Source: Calothrix sp. PCC 7507 (GTDB lineage Bacteria > Cyanobacteriota > Cyanobacteriia > Cyanobacteriales > Nostocaceae). Taken from it: a DNA stretch of 64,000 nt. The stretch lies in NCBI RefSeq assembly GCF_000316575.1, contig NC_019682.1:6063501-6127500 (forward strand). The letters are read 5' to 3'. Position 1 is the stretch's first letter, and each line of letters opens with the position of its first letter. The notes beneath the pieces are model-generated. The model had not been told where the DNA came from and did not search any database. It saw nothing but the letters and a program-made list of their open reading frames with translations. Below, in pieces: positions 50,037-56,240 of the stretch. The position numbers and the translations under genes were made by a program.

Positions 50037-50753
50037 GCAATTATAGCATAATTCACTAACTCTGAGAATATTTCTAGCAGGGAAGAATAGTAATTAAGCA
50101 ATAACCCTGAAGAATTCTAGAAAAACAATTAAAAATTTGGGCAAATATAAGGGTAATTACTCTGGGGTCTGGCATCTAGCTGATCGGACAATAAAAGCAA
50201 GTCAGGAAATGATATGTAGCGCTACCAAAAAAAATGCTAGGATAGACCAACGAAAAGTTATTAGACAGGGTAACTACTGCCAAGCAGTTAGGCGATCGCA
50301 CAAAAGTAAATCAATTACTCCATTGCTATTTGCCTAATACTTGTGGAATACTTAAGGACAGAAACCTTCACAAGTAGCGAAAAACTATTTTGTGTGCAAA
50401 GGGAAAGCTTGTAAGTTAGGGTTGCACCATTATAAATAGGGAAGTTTCTGTAAGTAGATGCACTAATGTGGCAAGATGAGTTTATTTTGTTTAACATTGG
50501 TGAGTAAGACTCGAAGCCAATCTGCCATTTTCAAGTAAGGAACAAAGTTTCTCTACAAAAGAATTGTGTAGACGCTCAATAGCTGCAACTATTTGCTATA
50601 CGCACAAAGATTAGCCGCAAAATTTAGATGAAATAGGAGTATACTTGCTAAACTCAGGGCTTTGGCAAGAAATTTAGTAACTCACTCGTGACGCTAGACT
50701 ATCCTCTCTTATCACCTGCCCATGCACTTTGTGGATGGGTAAACTGTCTCCTC
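50037..50753. other. Intergenic region upstream of the sRNA array, 717 bases
   Basis: No convincing gene. A frame at 50137-50337 on the plus strand is basic and irregular, lacks a ribosome site and was not accepted. One HIP1 core is present near 50292. The region ends where the first minus-strand sRNA terminator begins. Confidence 0.5.
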
Positions 50754-50790
50754 AAAAAAATTCCCTAGTAAGAGTTGTCCTACCAGGGAA
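50754..50790 (-). terminator. Terminator of NsiR1-type copy 1
   Basis: On the minus strand TTCCCTGGTAGGA and TCTTACTAGGGAA pair over 13 positions (two G-T pairs) around loop CAAC, then AATTTTTTT-like T-run at 50760-50754. Confidence 0.88.
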
Positions 50791-50826
50791 GTTAGTTATC
50801 AGGGTGCATCTACCACTTAATTGTTC
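50754..50826 (-). ncRNA. nsiR1: NsiR1-type sRNA, copy 1 (distal)
   Basis: About 73 bases transcribed leftward. The RNA should begin near 50826 (GAACAATTAAGTGGTAGATG) and run to a terminator with a 13-base-pair stem and CAAC loop (50761-50790) followed by seven T. The core GGTAGATGCACCCTG is shared by all copies. A TCCGGA motif lies 24 bases before the proposed start. NsiR1 is the HetR-dependent, heterocyst-specific sRNA known from repeats upstream of hetF in Nostoc; location, TCCGGA, size and terminator all agree. Exact ends are estimates. Confidence 0.88.
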
Positions 50827-50844
50827 TCAGGCTAACTACCATCT

Positions 50845-50850
50845 TCCGGA
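50845..50850 (-). promoter_or_regulatory. DIF-type TCCGGA promoter motif, copy 1
   Basis: TCCGGA (palindromic) at the -35 region of the copy 1 sRNA, with a TAGTTA sequence at 50838-50833 in the -10 area. The spacing from TCCGGA to the GAAC start element is the same in all three copies. Confidence 0.8.
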
Positions 50851-50890
50851 TAGATTCTGTGTAAAAAGAATTTTTAGTTTTTTTAAAATT

Positions 50891-50921
50891 AAAAAACCCT
50901 AGTAGGAGTTGTCCTACCAGG
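50891..50921 (-). terminator. Terminator of NsiR1-type copy 2
   Basis: Minus-strand stem of 11 pairs (CCCTGGTAGGA with TCCTACTAGGG), loop CAAC, followed by TTTTTT at 50896-50891. Confidence 0.88.
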
Positions 50922-50960
50922 GGAGTTAGTTATCAGGGTGCATCTACCATTTAATTGTTC
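50891..50960 (-). ncRNA. nsiR1: NsiR1-type sRNA, copy 2
   Basis: About 70 bases transcribed leftward, from near 50960 (GAACAATTAAATGGTAGATG) to a terminator (stem CCCTGGTAGGA/TCCTACTAGGG, loop CAAC) with six T at 50896-50891. It is almost identical to copy 1 in the transcribed part and differs freely upstream, except for the TCCGGA motif at the same distance. This pattern of a conserved transcript with a conserved spacing to the motif supports a functional gene. Confidence 0.88.
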
Positions 50961-50978
50961 TAGAAGAAATGAATATCA

Positions 50979-50984
50979 TCCGGA
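50979..50984 (-). promoter_or_regulatory. DIF-type TCCGGA promoter motif, copy 2
   Basis: TCCGGA at the -35 region of copy 2, 18 bases from the shared GAACAATT start element on the minus strand, the same interval as in copy 1. The -10 area is TATTCATTT. Confidence 0.8.
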
Positions 50985-51101
50985 TAAATTTGTATGTATT
51001 GGAGATTAATGAGTTAAGTTTAGATATGCATTTAATAAGCAAATTGTCAATAATTTAAAATTGTCATCAAATCAACAATTCCTGTGCTGCTGGTAAACAG
51101 C

Positions 51102-51140
51102 AAAAAAAATCCTCTGGCAGGCTCTCACCAACCAGAGGAG
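51102..51140 (-). terminator. Terminator of NsiR1-type copy 3
   Basis: Minus-strand TCCTCTGG pairs with CCAGAGGA (8 pairs) around a 14-base loop and is followed by TTTTTTTT at 51109-51102. Confidence 0.85.
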
Positions 51141-51175
51141 TCGAAGATCAAGGTGCATCTACCAATAAAGTGTTC
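51102..51175 (-). ncRNA. nsiR1: NsiR1-type sRNA, copy 3 (diverged)
   Basis: About 74 bases leftward from near 51175 (GAACACTTTATTGGTAGATG) to a terminator with eight T at 51109-51102. The core GGTAGATGCACCTTG is kept, but the terminator stem has a wholly different sequence (TCCTCTGG/CCAGAGGA) that still pairs, which argues for selection on the fold. TCCGGA sits at the conserved distance. The divergence from copies 1 and 2 suggests that this copy could have a different target range or strength (inference). Confidence 0.82.
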
Positions 51176-51193
51176 TATGCGGATCTGAGCCGA

Positions 51194-51199
51194 TCCGGA
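51194..51199 (-). promoter_or_regulatory. DIF-type TCCGGA promoter motif, copy 3
   Basis: TCCGGA within GATCCGGAT at the -35 region of copy 3, with the same spacing to the GAAC start element as in copies 1 and 2 although the sequence between has changed. Confidence 0.78.
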
Positions 51200-51224
51200 T
51201 TAAAGTTGTAAAAGCGGGGAAAGC

Positions 51225-51271
51225 AAAAAAAACTCGGTTCAGAAACATTCAGTGCCAGGATGCATCTAAGG
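51225..51271 (-). other. Decayed NsiR1-type copy in the hetF leader
   Basis: An eight-A run (51225-51232), then AGGATGCATCTAAGG (51257-51271), which matches the sRNA core region AGGGTGCATCTACCA in order and spacing. There is no TCCGGA on its right and no pairing stem next to the run. It lies 75-121 bases before the hetF start codon and would be part of the hetF mRNA, if the hetF promoter is further left. Confidence 0.55.
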
Positions 51272-51345
51272 TATCAGAAGGAGCGAAAAATCGACTTGAA
51301 ACTTTCGCGTTTCAAACCAGATTTAGGAGGCGAATAGGAGAAATT

Positions 51346-53886
51346 GTGACCCAGGAATTCCACATTTCCGTGACTCCAGTAGGGCAAAATGACTACTTGG
51401 TGCGGACGGAACAAGTCGCGCCTGGGGTGCCATTGGCAGAAGAACTGGTGACTTGGCCTGTAGCTGATTGGTTGGCAGCTGCTGGGCATTTGATGAATGA
51501 CCCTTTGAAATCGGTGTTGCAGGGTGATTTGTTCGCCTCCGGTGGGAGAGAAAGCGACATTGCCAGAAATTCCGTTAATTTAGTAGCATTGGGTCAGCAA
51601 TTTTATAATGCACTGTTTCAAGGCACTCTCAGGGATAGTTGGATTACGGCGCAAGGGATAGCTCAGAACCATCAACAGGTGTTGCGTTTAAGGTTGGGGT
51701 TAAAGGATACTAGGTTAGCTCGTCTGCCGTGGGAAGTCATGCACGCTGGCGATCGCCCTCTAGCTACTGGCCCTTATGTGGCTTTTTCTCGCTACCAAAG
51801 TGGAGTTTTGGCAGGATCTCGTTTGCCATCAACAAATGTCCCCAAATCACCAGAAGAAGGTGGCGTAAAGGTATTGATGGTTATTGCCTCACCTACAGAT
51901 CAAGTCCGTCTTGACCTACTTAAACAAGAAGCTATTAAACTACAAGAGGAGCTACACCGTCACACACCACGAGTTGGTGAAAGTGGCAATTATCTCCCAG
52001 ATATTGAACTTACTCTATTAGATCAACCAGGGCGGGAAGAATTAACCCAAGCCTTGGAACAAGGGCGTTACCACGTCCTGCACTACTCTGGACATAGTAA
52101 CTTAGGCCCTAACGGCGGCGAAATTTATCTTGTCAGTAGACGAACTGGCTTAACAGAAACCCTAAGTGGGGATGATCTGGCAGGCTTGCTCGTCAACAAT
52201 AATATTCAAATGGTGGTGTTTAATTCCTGTTTAGGAGCATATAGGGCTAACTCCGATACGGCTGGGGAAACAGGGGAACGCAATCTCACAGAAAGCCTGG
52301 TGAAGCGCGGCATCAGAAGTATTTTGGCTATGTCAGAACGCATTCCTGATGAGGTGGCGCTGACACTCACCCAATTATTCTATCGTAACCTGAATCAGGG
52401 ATATCCGGTAGATTTGTGTGTGGGTCGGGTACGCCAGGGATTAATCTCTGCCTATGGTTCTCACCATATGTACTGGGCGTTGCCGATTTTGTATCTCCAA
52501 CCGGAATTTGACGGTTTTCTCAGTCCGGAAATCACTGAAAGTGCAGAAGCTCTCAATGATTATCATCCGCCTTTAAGAGCCAATCCGGCGGCGATGTATT
52601 CTGCTGTGGCAGATGAGACTGAGTTGCCTTTGGCAATGAATGAAATGCTCCCGAATTCCCTAACCCGAGACTCTTCTGGGTTAGATTGGCTCGGTGAAGA
52701 TACTTGGGGCGATCTGGTTGAGGAAATTGAATATGATGATCCAACCTACGCAGAAGATTCGGCACTTGTTTCAGATTTGTTTCGGCAGTTAGATACTCAA
52801 AAAGCGACGGTTGAGCAAACTCCGATGACTGCGGAACTTGTGCAAAAAGTGACAGAAAATGGTTTTCCATCGAGGCAAATTTCTGGGGAAATAGCTGCCT
52901 TTGATGGGGAAGCAAGTTTGTGGGGCGAAGTTGCAGAATCCACAAATGAAGCCAATCAAAATTTTGCTGTGGATTGGAACAATCCAACCCTTAGCCCTTC
53001 ACAGCCTAAGGGATCGAGAACCAGGAACAAAGGCCAAAATTGGCCGATGATGGGTGCTATGGGAGCAAGTGCGATCGCAGTTTTGATCGGTTTAAATTGG
53101 TGGTGGCAAAATCGCCAGTTGTCAGCATTACCTGACATACCCCAAATTTCTGCCCAGTCGCCAAATCAACTTCCCGTTAACTTACCGAAGGCTGAAACGG
53201 GAATTGTAACTGCTATTGCGACAGAAAAATTAAACCAAGGCGACTTAAAAGGTGGGCTGGAGGCTGTAGAAGAACTACTCAACCGTGGTGTATTGCCATC
53301 TGCAGAAGCTGCCTTAAAGATTGTGCCCCAAAAGCAAATTGATGATGCTGCTGTCAACTTTTTGAAGGGGCGACTGGCTTGGCAATCTGTTCAAAGTAAA
53401 GATAAAAAATATAGTATTGATGATGCGCGTCGTTATTGGGAAACTGCGGTTAAGTCTCAGCCAGATTCCTTTGTCTATAGAAACGCTTTAGGATTTGCCT
53501 ACTACGTAGAAAATGATCTCAATCGAGCAAATGATTCTTGGTTTCAGGCTTTAAAATTAGCTCTTGAACAGCCAAATAAAGTTGCTGCATCTATATCGAC
53601 AAAAGAGGTATTACCTACAAAGGGGGCAGTACCTAAAGAGGCTTTAACTTCTTATGCTGGGTTAGCTTTAGGATTTTATAAATCCGCATATAATCAACCA
53701 GATGTCAAGCAATCTCACTATATAAGTGAAGCGATTAAACTGCGTCAAATGATTATCAATAACGATCCGATAAATTTCCAGGTAGATAAATTAAGTCACA
53801 ACTGGCTGTGGACAGACAAAGCTATTAGCGATTGGGAATCACTCCTGCAGAAAAAAAGTGAAGAAAGTTCAGCTAGTCAAAATTAG
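51346..53886 (+). CDS. hetF: HetF, CHAT-domain protease-like heterocyst regulator
   Basis: An 846-residue protein that starts with GTG at 51346, with AGGAG 5 bases upstream. Residues about 110-400 form a CHAT (clan CD, caspase-like) domain with the dyad H250 (VLHYSGHSNLG) and C295 (VVFNSCLGAYRA). A membrane helix lies near 565-587 (MMGAMGASAIAVLIGLNWWW), followed by a TPR-like helical C-terminus (residues about 610-840). In Nostoc, HetF is needed for heterocyst differentiation and for limiting HetR. The NsiR1-type array directly upstream, on the opposite strand, is the known hallmark of the hetF locus. Confidence 0.93.
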   Translation: MTQEFHISVTPVGQNDYLVRTEQVAPGVPLAEELVTWPVADWLAAAGHLMNDPLKSVLQGDLFASGGRESDIARNSVNLVALGQQFYNALFQGTLRDSWITAQGIAQNHQQVLRLRLGLKDTRLARLPWEVMHAGDRPLATGPYVAFSRYQSGVLAGSRLPSTNVPKSPEEGGVKVLMVIASPTDQVRLDLLKQEAIKLQEELHRHTPRVGESGNYLPDIELTLLDQPGREELTQALEQGRYHVLHYSGHSNLGPNGGEIYLVSRRTGLTETLSGDDLAGLLVNNNIQMVVFNSCLGAYRANSDTAGETGERNLTESLVKRGIRSILAMSERIPDEVALTLTQLFYRNLNQGYPVDLCVGRVRQGLISAYGSHHMYWALPILYLQPEFDGFLSPEITESAEALNDYHPPLRANPAAMYSAVADETELPLAMNEMLPNSLTRDSSGLDWLGEDTWGDLVEEIEYDDPTYAEDSALVSDLFRQLDTQKATVEQTPMTAELVQKVTENGFPSRQISGEIAAFDGEASLWGEVAESTNEANQNFAVDWNNPTLSPSQPKGSRTRNKGQNWPMMGAMGASAIAVLIGLNWWWQNRQLSALPDIPQISAQSPNQLPVNLPKAETGIVTAIATEKLNQGDLKGGLEAVEELLNRGVLPSAEAALKIVPQKQIDDAAVNFLKGRLAWQSVQSKDKKYSIDDARRYWETAVKSQPDSFVYRNALGFAYYVENDLNRANDSWFQALKLALEQPNKVAASISTKEVLPTKGAVPKEALTSYAGLALGFYKSAYNQPDVKQSHYISEAIKLRQMIINNDPINFQVDKLSHNWLWTDKAISDWESLLQKKSEESSASQN

Positions 53887-54216: not shown

Positions 54217-54597
54217 ATGACAACAGTATCTACGGTTACATTTACAATTTCTGTAAATGACCCGGAATTAGACGCAGAAGAAAAACAAGAAATAGTACAG
54301 AATTTGTTGAATCAACTCAGCAATCTAGAAGAAGTAGAGCGCGTAGAGCGGACACAAGATCAAAATCCAGAAGCAGGAAGTAAGCCAGGAATTGCTTTTT
54401 TGGTAGGAAAATTAACAGCAGAAGTAAGCATCAAAAATGTTAAGGCTTTTTTGGGATTTTTGGGCGATCGCCTGGGCAACAAACCCATAAAAATATTAGT
54501 AGAAGCCAATAATAAGAAGATTGAGATTGAAGCTAGTAGCCGACAAGAGCTACTAGAAGCTGAAAGAGCAGTCAAGGAAATACTAGCAAGCCTTTGA
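54217..54597 (+). CDS. EACC1-like effector-associated protein
   Basis: A 126-residue acidic protein. The pattern of an N-terminal strand (VTFTISVNDPELDAEEKQEI), a helix ending LLNQLSNLEEVERVERT, a Gly/Ala/Leu-rich central helix (VGKLTAEVSIKNVKAFLGFL), a strand (KPIKILVEANNKKIEIEASS) and a final helix resembles effector-associated constant component 1, a small protein found beside caspase, CHAT or trypsin effectors in bacterial conflict systems. The next gene, 11 bases downstream, encodes exactly such a caspase. Assignment rests on recalled family pattern and context. Confidence 0.72.
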   Translation: MTTVSTVTFTISVNDPELDAEEKQEIVQNLLNQLSNLEEVERVERTQDQNPEAGSKPGIAFLVGKLTAEVSIKNVKAFLGFLGDRLGNKPIKILVEANNKKIEIEASSRQELLEAERAVKEILASL

Positions 54598-54608
54598 AGG
54601 AAACTCAA

Positions 54609-56240
54609 ATGGCTAAGAAATTGGCTCTGCTGATCGGAGTGAGTCAGTACGAAACTGGCTTACCACCAATTCCTACTGCTATTAAAGATGTAGCTGCTAT
54701 GCAGCGAGTTTTACAAAATCCTGATTTGGGTGGCTTTGAAGTCAAAACTATAGAAAATCCTGATTTAATCACAATGCAAATAGCCATTGAAGAGCTATTT
54801 AAAAATTGTGAAAAGAACGACGTGACTCTTTTATTTTTCTCTGGTCACGGGATTACAGATGATGCCAATAGGCTTTATCTGACAACTTGCAACACTCGCA
54901 TAGATGCTTTTTATTCCACAGCAGTCTCAGCAAGTAACGTGAAAAACATTATGCAGAAAAGCCCTTCTAAATGGCAAGTGGTGATTCTCGATTGTTGTTA
55001 CAGTGGCGCTTTCGGTTTGGATTGGGAGCCAAAGCCTACAAGTGGGGGGTGCGCGCTGCTGGCATCTTCCACTGCTGTCAGGCTATCTTTTGAAGCAGAA
55101 GAATCAGGCATTTACACTCGATATATAGTAGAGGGGATTGAGACTGGTGCCGCAGATTTGAACAAAGACGGTTTCATTTCTGTTGATGAGTTGAATGATT
55201 ATGTACAAGGGAAAGTGCAAGCAGAAAAACCGGAAATGAAGCCAGAAATGCACCCGGTTAAGGCAGGTCACAAGATTCAAATTGCTAAAACTGTTAAAGC
55301 TTCAACTACTCACAAAAGCCCTCAAGTTTCCACCAGTCAAGTGCAGAGATGGACATGTATCTACACGCTTACTGACCATAGCGATAAAGTCAACTGTGTG
55401 GCTATCAGTCCTGATGGTCAAACCCTTGTCAGTGGGAGTGCTGATCAAACCATCAAAATTTGGAGTTTGACAACAGGAAAACATATCCATACTTTTGAGG
55501 GACATGCAGATACAGTCAACTGTGTAGCTATCAGTCCTGATGGTCAAACCCTAGCTAGTGGTAGTGCTGATAAAACTATTAAGATTTGGAATTTAAATAC
55601 AAAAAGACACGTCCGCAACCTTGGTGGTTGGTTCTCTCCACACTTAGATTCGATATGTTCTCTGGCTATTACTCCAGATGGTCAGACTTTGATCAGTGGC
55701 AGTCAAGACCATACAATTAAGCTGTGGAATCTGGCGACGGGAAAACAAACAAATCACCTCACACAAAATTCATGGGGAGTTTATTCCCTAGCGATTACCT
55801 CAGATGGTCAGGCGATCGCTAGCGACACTTTCGAGCATACGATCAAGTTATGTAGTTTAGCCAGCGAGCAGATTTGGCAAGATTTTACTGGACATACAGA
55901 TTGGATTTGGGCGATCGCTATCAGTCCCAATGGTAAAATTCTCGCTAGTGGGAGCCAAGATTGCACAGTCAAATTGTGGAACTTAGAAACTGGCAAGCTG
56001 CTGCACAATCTCACCGAACATCCTTCTCCAGTACATTCAGTTAGTTTCAAATCTGATAGTCAAGTTCTCGCTAGCGGCAGTTATGATCAGACGATTAAGC
56101 TCTGGAATGTGGAAACTGGGAAACTGATCTGCACCTTAACAGGGCATCAAAATGGTGTAAATTCCGTTTCTTGGAGTCCAGATGGACAGATTCTCGTTAG
56201 CGGTAGTGATGACAAAACCATTAACATCTGGCGAGCATAA
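54609..56240 (+). CDS. Caspase (peptidase C14) and WD40 repeat protein
   Basis: About 543 residues from the ATG at 54609 (MAKKLALLIGVSQYETGLPP), with AAGGAAAC upstream; a TTG at 54594 is less likely. Residues 1-220 form a caspase-like domain with the His (FFSGHG near 82) and Cys (ILDCCYSGAFG near 127) dyad. Residues about 245-543 contain seven WD40 repeats, probably one closed propeller; repeats 1, 2, 3, 5, 6 and 7 are regular and repeat 4 is degenerate (TIKLCSLASEQIW). It pairs with the EACC1-like gene, as in NTP-dependent conflict systems, although no STAND NTPase is seen. Confidence 0.92.
   Translation: MAKKLALLIGVSQYETGLPPIPTAIKDVAAMQRVLQNPDLGGFEVKTIENPDLITMQIAIEELFKNCEKNDVTLLFFSGHGITDDANRLYLTTCNTRIDAFYSTAVSASNVKNIMQKSPSKWQVVILDCCYSGAFGLDWEPKPTSGGCALLASSTAVRLSFEAEESGIYTRYIVEGIETGAADLNKDGFISVDELNDYVQGKVQAEKPEMKPEMHPVKAGHKIQIAKTVKASTTHKSPQVSTSQVQRWTCIYTLTDHSDKVNCVAISPDGQTLVSGSADQTIKIWSLTTGKHIHTFEGHADTVNCVAISPDGQTLASGSADKTIKIWNLNTKRHVRNLGGWFSPHLDSICSLAITPDGQTLISGSQDHTIKLWNLATGKQTNHLTQNSWGVYSLAITSDGQAIASDTFEHTIKLCSLASEQIWQDFTGHTDWIWAIAISPNGKILASGSQDCTVKLWNLETGKLLHNLTEHPSPVHSVSFKSDSQVLASGSYDQTIKLWNVETGKLICTLTGHQNGVNSVSWSPDGQILVSGSDDKTINIWRA

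Follow-up and report, generated by a model that had tools for sequence, protein, structure and literature searches.

The region upstream of hetF in Calothrix sp. PCC 7507 carries a series of tandem direct repeats on the strand opposite this gene, and the question is whether these are genes for the small RNA NsiR1 and, if so, whether they act on hetF itself: a first-pass annotation of the locus had read them as three NsiR1-type genes antisense to the hetF leader. The NsiR1 system is known from Nostoc PCC 7120, where 12 copies (nsiR1.1 to nsiR1.12) and copy-specific targets have been published (PMC9045159, PMC8406250), and where the proximal NsiR1.1 acts differently from the identical NsiR1.4 copies (PMC9045159). 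We analysed a stretch of 64,000 nucleotides around the array (the window), its relatives, and the distribution of NsiR1 among cyanobacteria.

The three array genes and their parts

A search of the window with the Rfam covariance model RF02399 gave exactly three matches, all complete NsiR1 genes on the minus strand upstream of hetF, and each scored above the gathering score of 39 bits that was taken to define NsiR1 membership (Table 1). Copies 1 and 2 are 93% alike in a direct-repeat comparison, and copy 3 is 69% like copy 1. Every copy contains the core TGGTAGATGCACC, is preceded by a -10 region and by an exact TCCGGA (DIF1) whose first base is at -35, and ends in a terminator of its own. The perfect core GGTAGATGCACC, without mismatch, is confined to these copies within the 64 kb, and three of the seven TCCGGA hexamers in the window start exactly 35 nt before model position 1 of an NsiR1 copy. 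A DIF1 at -35 followed by an extended -10 region is the signature of heterocyst-specific (DIF+) promoters (PMC6133370). Folding gave a terminator hairpin followed by a T-run in each copy (-19.8, -19.9 and -22.8 kcal/mol, with z of -3.2, -2.4 and -3.0, for copies 1, 2 and 3, respectively). A short 5' hairpin (GGU...ACC) is nearly invariant among array units, and covariation neither supports nor contradicts it; for copy 3 the folding program favours a different 5' pairing.

The NsiR1 identity, the TCCGGA promoter at constant distance and the separate terminators, all claimed in the first-pass annotation, are borne out by these results; the GAAC that had been called a start element occupies -11 to -8 in all three copies and belongs instead to the -10 region. 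On the evidence of the sequence, the three RNAs are ordinary and genuine members of the already known NsiR1 family. The Calothrix sp. PCC 7507 genome has hetR. What the analysis shows directly is the parts of the genes and how well they are conserved, the subtypes, the homology of the hetF promoter and the predicted pairing described below; expression, HetR dependence and regulation of the array in this strain are inferred.

Table 1. Coordinates of the NsiR1 genes of Calothrix sp. PCC 7507 and of the hetF region (window positions, except those prefixed C1, which are contig positions)
Feature	Position	Strand	Remarks
NsiR1 copy 1	50754-50815	minus	distal type, linker CCCTGATAACT; RF02399 70.3 bits; predicted +1 at 50815
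Copy 1 terminator	stem ~50761-50790, T-run 50754-50760	minus	from folding
Copy 1 -10 region	50816-50826	minus	GAACAATTAAG, -11 to -1
Copy 1 DIF1, TCCGGA	50845-50850	minus	starts at -35
NsiR1 copy 2	50888-50949	minus	distal type; RF02399 62.7 bits; predicted +1 at 50949; terminator stem ~50897-50922
Copy 2 -10 region	50950-50960	minus	GAACAATTAAA
Copy 2 DIF1, TCCGGA	50979-50984	minus	starts at -35
NsiR1 copy 3	51103-51164	minus	hetF-proximal subtype, linker CCTTGATCTTC; RF02399 53.5 bits; predicted +1 at 51164; terminator stem ~51110-51139
Copy 3 -10 region	51165-51175	minus	GAACACTTTAT
Copy 3 DIF1, TCCGGA	51194-51199	minus	starts at -35
hetF -35-like box	51242-51249	plus	GAAACATT; predicted, position conserved in Nostocaceae
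hetF -10-like box	51263-51268	plus	CATCTA; predicted by homology with Nodularia
hetF mRNA leader, 70 nt	51276-51345	plus	predicted from the Nodularia spumigena CCY9414 start site
hetF	51346-53886	plus	GTG start; NF045509 CellDiv_HetF equivalog, 1482.5 bits (cut-off 1200), profile 1-836 of 836
Solitary copy 1	C1:842664-842714	plus	between prolipoprotein diacylglyceryl transferase-like and cobalamin-type methyltransferase-like ORFs (names from ORF reading)
Solitary copy 2	C1:5862563-5862619	minus	between FHA-like and histidine-kinase-like ORFs (names from ORF reading)

Some further features of the window may be mentioned here. A core-like AGTAGATGCACT lies on the plus strand at 50453-50464, 300 nt past the distal end of the array; DIF1 and a terminator were not seen there, and it was taken as a chance match or a remnant. 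A possible fourth, decayed copy on the minus strand (51253-51270, CTTAGATGCATC) was rejected, being the predicted hetF -10 box. A caspase-like protein with WD40 repeats (NF047832 plus WD40) is encoded shortly 3' of hetF, at 54594-56240 on the plus strand, and the hetF product is itself caspase-like (CHAT-domain). The window also holds a TPP riboswitch (RF00059, 27535-27631, plus strand, 61.3 bits).

Terminator covariation and two types of array unit

The stem of copy 3 had been noted to differ on both sides while still pairing, and a covariance analysis over several genomes had been suggested. Among 29 distinct aligned units, taken from the hetF arrays of numerous Nostocaceae, both sides had changed in 10 of the 12 terminator pairs; 30 such cells were counted against 15.1 expected from shuffles, none of 500 of which reached 30, and the signal became much weaker once the pairing partners were slid. 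Terminator covariation is real, but the description of copy 3 as simply a covarying copy does not stand, as appears from a comparison of 81 hetF loci (the window and 80 named relatives). Complete units, defined by a core, a DIF1 with at most one mismatch and a T-run, number 407 in these loci, and units located 174-190 nt before hetF were designated proximal. In 57 of 57 proximal units the linker was CCTTGATCTTC or nearly so, and in 329 of 350 non-proximal units it was of the CCCTGATAACT type; the proximal-type linker is thereby present in 57/57 proximal versus 17/350 other units (p 1e-54), the 17 exceptions being mostly proximal copies that have moved farther out, with a few classifier errors. 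By this linker comparison copy 3 is of the proximal type and copies 1 and 2 are of the distal type. Judged by linker and location, copy 3 is a position-locked, conserved subtype and not a drifted repeat, and both the proximal and the distal type of NsiR1 are conserved across the family, suggesting that the copy-specific targets known from PCC 7120 are ancient.

The promoter is equally regular in the 81 loci: 434 of 538 core-like matches are accompanied by TCCGGA with no or one mismatch, in 366 of these 434 at exactly -35, and many of the remaining core-like matches are CTTAGATGCATC, i.e. the hetF -10 box itself. The size of the arrays is variable, as the first-pass annotation had supposed from its three copies here, and ranges from 0 to 12 with a median of 5.5 among the 60 hetF loci whose upstream sequence exceeds 2.5 kb; a genome congeneric with Calothrix sp. 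PCC 7507 gave 12 RF02399 family matches. In four Nostoc relatives both the array and the usual hetF promoter boxes are absent, with other upstream sequence in place.

The hetF promoter and putative targets of the array

Whether any copy lies opposite the hetF leader depends on where hetF transcription starts. In Nodularia spumigena CCY9414 the hetF start has been mapped at 2206991F (PMC3610870), which is 70 nt before the start codon as hetF begins at 2207061. Upstream of this mapped start, the first base of CATCTA is at a distance of 13 nt and that of GAAACATT at 34 nt; the coordinates were checked with hetR and ntcA, whose start sites lie directly after TATACT and TATTCT, respectively. Most of the 80 relatives have both boxes, separated by 13 or 14 nt, in the corresponding position upstream of hetF, and the pattern occurs in 167 of 218 Nostocaceae genomes, a count that includes unrelated chance matches, with many of the listed matches being hetF-type. 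In the window the boxes predict a hetF start at 51276, and with this start no NsiR1 copy overlaps the leader. The predicted 70-nt leader pairs with the copies at -9.7 to -13.7 kcal/mol, which is background level.

For PCC 7120, by contrast, the hetF start has been reported at -256, which falls within nsiR1.2 and leaves nsiR1.1 as the only copy overlapping the leader (PMC8406250), and antisense overlap of hetF with NsiR1.1 has been reported (PMC8406250, PMC9045159, PMC3141674). In view of these reports a longer hetF transcript may also exist in Calothrix sp. PCC 7507, and with a start of this type copy 3 alone would overlap the leader; copies 1 and 2 are outside even such a leader. The claim that three genes run antisense to the leader of hetF is therefore unsupported, as a start at -70 gives no overlap and a start at -256 gives overlap for copy 3 only. 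Probably it does not hold that all three copies lie opposite the hetF mRNA leader in this strain, and an antisense role of the array on this leader is doubtful. The start-site comparison also questions the reach of the published antisense control of hetF beyond PCC 7120. The Nodularia and PCC 7120 starts differ even though the boxes of the -70 start look conserved in other Nostocaceae (e.g. locus L090), and one of the two start-site data sets may have missed a hetF start. A separate observation is that the DIF1 of copy 3 and the predicted hetF promoter (51194-51268) are placed back to back, about 45 nt apart, in a near-constant arrangement in most Nostocaceae; HetR bound at this DIF1 might influence hetF transcription directly.

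A candidate target in trans was found among the four hetP-like genes of the Calothrix sp. PCC 7507 genome. For the one at about 2452884 of contig C1, pairing across the start codon is predicted at -24.1 kcal/mol with copy 1 and -23.9 kcal/mol with copy 2, which beats all 61 start regions of window ORFs, the only background used and with energies that leave accessibility out of account; one background region comes near, at -22.4 and -23.6 kcal/mol. Copy 3 pairs with the same gene at an unexceptional -19.1 kcal/mol, equalled by four background regions. In PCC 7120, NsiR1.4 is preferred over NsiR1.1 for the hetP-like alr3234 (PMC9045159), and the predicted stronger pairing of the distal than of the proximal type matches this preference, with the Calothrix gene as the putative counterpart of alr3234.

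We propose that the locus is an array of three independent genes driven by HetR through DIF1, with the distal pair acting on the hetP-like gene and copy 3 forming a separate subtype, and we hold this proposal as a whole to be very probably correct. HetR would act on each unit through its TCCGGA at -35 as a cell begins heterocyst differentiation, and transcription would stop at the hairpin and T-run of the unit; the product would be some 60 nt long and mostly unpaired in its 5' part. The distal pair, copies 1 and 2, corresponding to the NsiR1.4 type of PCC 7120, would most likely act in trans by pairing across the start codon of the hetP-like commitment gene and blocking its translation. Copy 3, of the NsiR1.1 type and fixed about 180 nt before hetF, would be antisense to hetF only if the transcript were long, as reported for PCC 7120. 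Since the predicted 70-nt leader lies clear of copy 3, this copy may here have other targets, or its back-to-back promoter may link hetF transcription to the binding of HetR.

Other readings of the locus were weighed against this proposal. If a long hetF mRNA began upstream of the array, all three copies would be cis-antisense to its leader, which agrees with their strand and with the -256 start and the hetF repression by antisense NsiR1.1 published for PCC 7120 (PMC8406250, PMC9045159). Copies 2 and 1, however, start 396 and 530 nt before the hetF start codon, past -256, a Nodularia-type promoter at -70 keeps its place here as in most Nostocaceae, and copy number and distal spacing vary widely, unlike what antisense coverage of a whole leader would lead one to expect; we regard this reading as improbable. 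The sequence TGCATCTA before hetF (51261-51268) shares with the NsiR1 loop UAGAUGCA a complementarity of 8 nt plus CCUG and keeps a fixed place near -85 in the majority of the 80 hetF relatives; as a trans target it could explain the invariant core. However, in Nodularia CATCTA begins 13 nt before the mapped start and GAAACATT precedes that box by 21 nt, and because this start maps downstream, the site would be a -10 box that is not transcribed from it; moreover, beyond the main clade no more than NATCTA is retained, so that complementarity is not preserved, yet the NsiR1 core is invariant. On both grounds TGCATCTA was rejected as a target, and we give this explanation very little credence.

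Least probable of all, and hardly to be entertained, is that the three units are decaying, non-functional remains of a larger array. Their number is below the median of the arrays with enough upstream sequence and below the 12 family matches of the congeneric genome, but promoter, core and terminator are intact in all three copies, the proximal copy retains both its subtype and its position, and copies 1 and 2 retain the predicted pairing with the hetP-like gene.

The Calothrix locus resembles that of PCC 7120 in the RNA family, the separate DIF1 promoters, the location upstream of hetF on the opposite strand, the divergent hetF-proximal copy and the predicted hetP-like target favouring the distal type. 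It differs in having three copies, with two solitary ones elsewhere in the genome, instead of 12, and in the predicted hetF start at -70, which makes overlap of copy 3 with the leader doubtful. Nodularia spumigena CCY9414 has 12 repeats upstream of hetF (PMC3610870), compared with three here, in the same arrangement and with the same hetF promoter boxes, for which the start at -70 was mapped in that species.

NsiR1 and HetR across cyanobacteria

Taken alone, the array is a textbook case of an NsiR1 locus, and the co-distribution of NsiR1 and HetR is the more interesting result. Every genome sampled from the window's family, 145 in number, has NsiR1. In a sample of the order (245 genomes), 169 had an NsiR1 match and 140 had HetR (PF03574); NsiR1 was present in all 140 HetR genomes, with a strong match in 138 of them. 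Outside the window's family, strong matches in this sample gave 120 genomes with both, 2 with HetR only, 17 with NsiR1 only and 88 with neither. In a class-wide sample of other orders NsiR1 was again found in every HetR genome (103/103) and without HetR in five genomes only. Taken together, 243 of 243 HetR-positive genomes of the order and class samples have NsiR1, far beyond the Nostocaceae, and the NsiR1 RNAs of these lineages retain TGGTAGATGCACCCTGAT nearly unchanged.

Most of these NsiR1 genes have TCCGGA near -35. In the order sample TCCGGA was found 34-36 nt upstream in 35 of 40 HetR genomes versus 2 of 13 HetR-less genomes (p 4e-6, uncorrected for kinship; hexamers were read by eye, as promoters lie outside the Rfam model), and HetR-less lineages mostly have TCCTGA, TCCCGA or TGCGGA in its place. 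In addition, at least 30 genomes from seven other families have an NsiR1 gene opposite in strand to the hetF homologue and no more than 1 kb upstream of it; from their taxonomy, we take these families to form no heterocysts. PatD (NF037954) was tried as a heterocyst marker and proved useless, as it was present in 80 of 80 genomes tried and also in Synechococcus elongatus.

We consider it likely that NsiR1 did not arise with heterocysts but is an old and constant companion of HetR, present in all cyanobacteria with HetR, also in the many lineages outside the Nostocaceae, under DIF1 promoters and often opposite hetF, that lineages keeping NsiR1 without HetR mostly have an altered DIF1, and that the heterocyst programme recruited an existing HetR-NsiR1-hetF module. 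If NsiR1 does travel with HetR throughout the class, the RNA is open to study in simple filamentous species without heterocysts, and a pre-heterocyst role of HetR could be tested through one of its most conserved putative targets. A literature search on NsiR1 in species without heterocysts gave one case, Limnospira (PMC8400943), and left the main NsiR1 papers of 2010 and 2020 outside its scope, so that priority is uncertain. In Limnospira indica PCC 8005, RNA162 is NsiR1-like (PMC8400943); as in Calothrix an NsiR1 relative occurs in a hetR genome, but in a species without heterocysts, consistent with the class-wide pattern.

Of the two solitary NsiR1 copies of the Calothrix sp. PCC 7507 genome, solitary copy 1 has TCCGGA one base closer than -35, and solitary copy 2 has TCCTGA at -35. 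Solitary copy 1 (TGGTAGATGCACCCTGGTTAAGCCCTAGAG...) resembles seven sequences in several other families and from this similarity looks like a separate conserved NsiR1 subtype; the type includes HetR-less genomes of one of these families, with TGCGGA near -35. Finally, a second kind of small-RNA gene was encountered that has the NsiR1 core (GTAGATGCACCCTGATGAT...) and a terminator, with an ordinary -10 box (TATACT or similar) and without DIF1. An Rfam search of these constitutive core-bearing relatives returned either NsiR1 or no match, and other families were not found. Two tandem copies of this kind lie beside a gatB-like gene at C1:5781233 and 5781704 (minus strand), and six relatives occur in several families, also in genomes without HetR.
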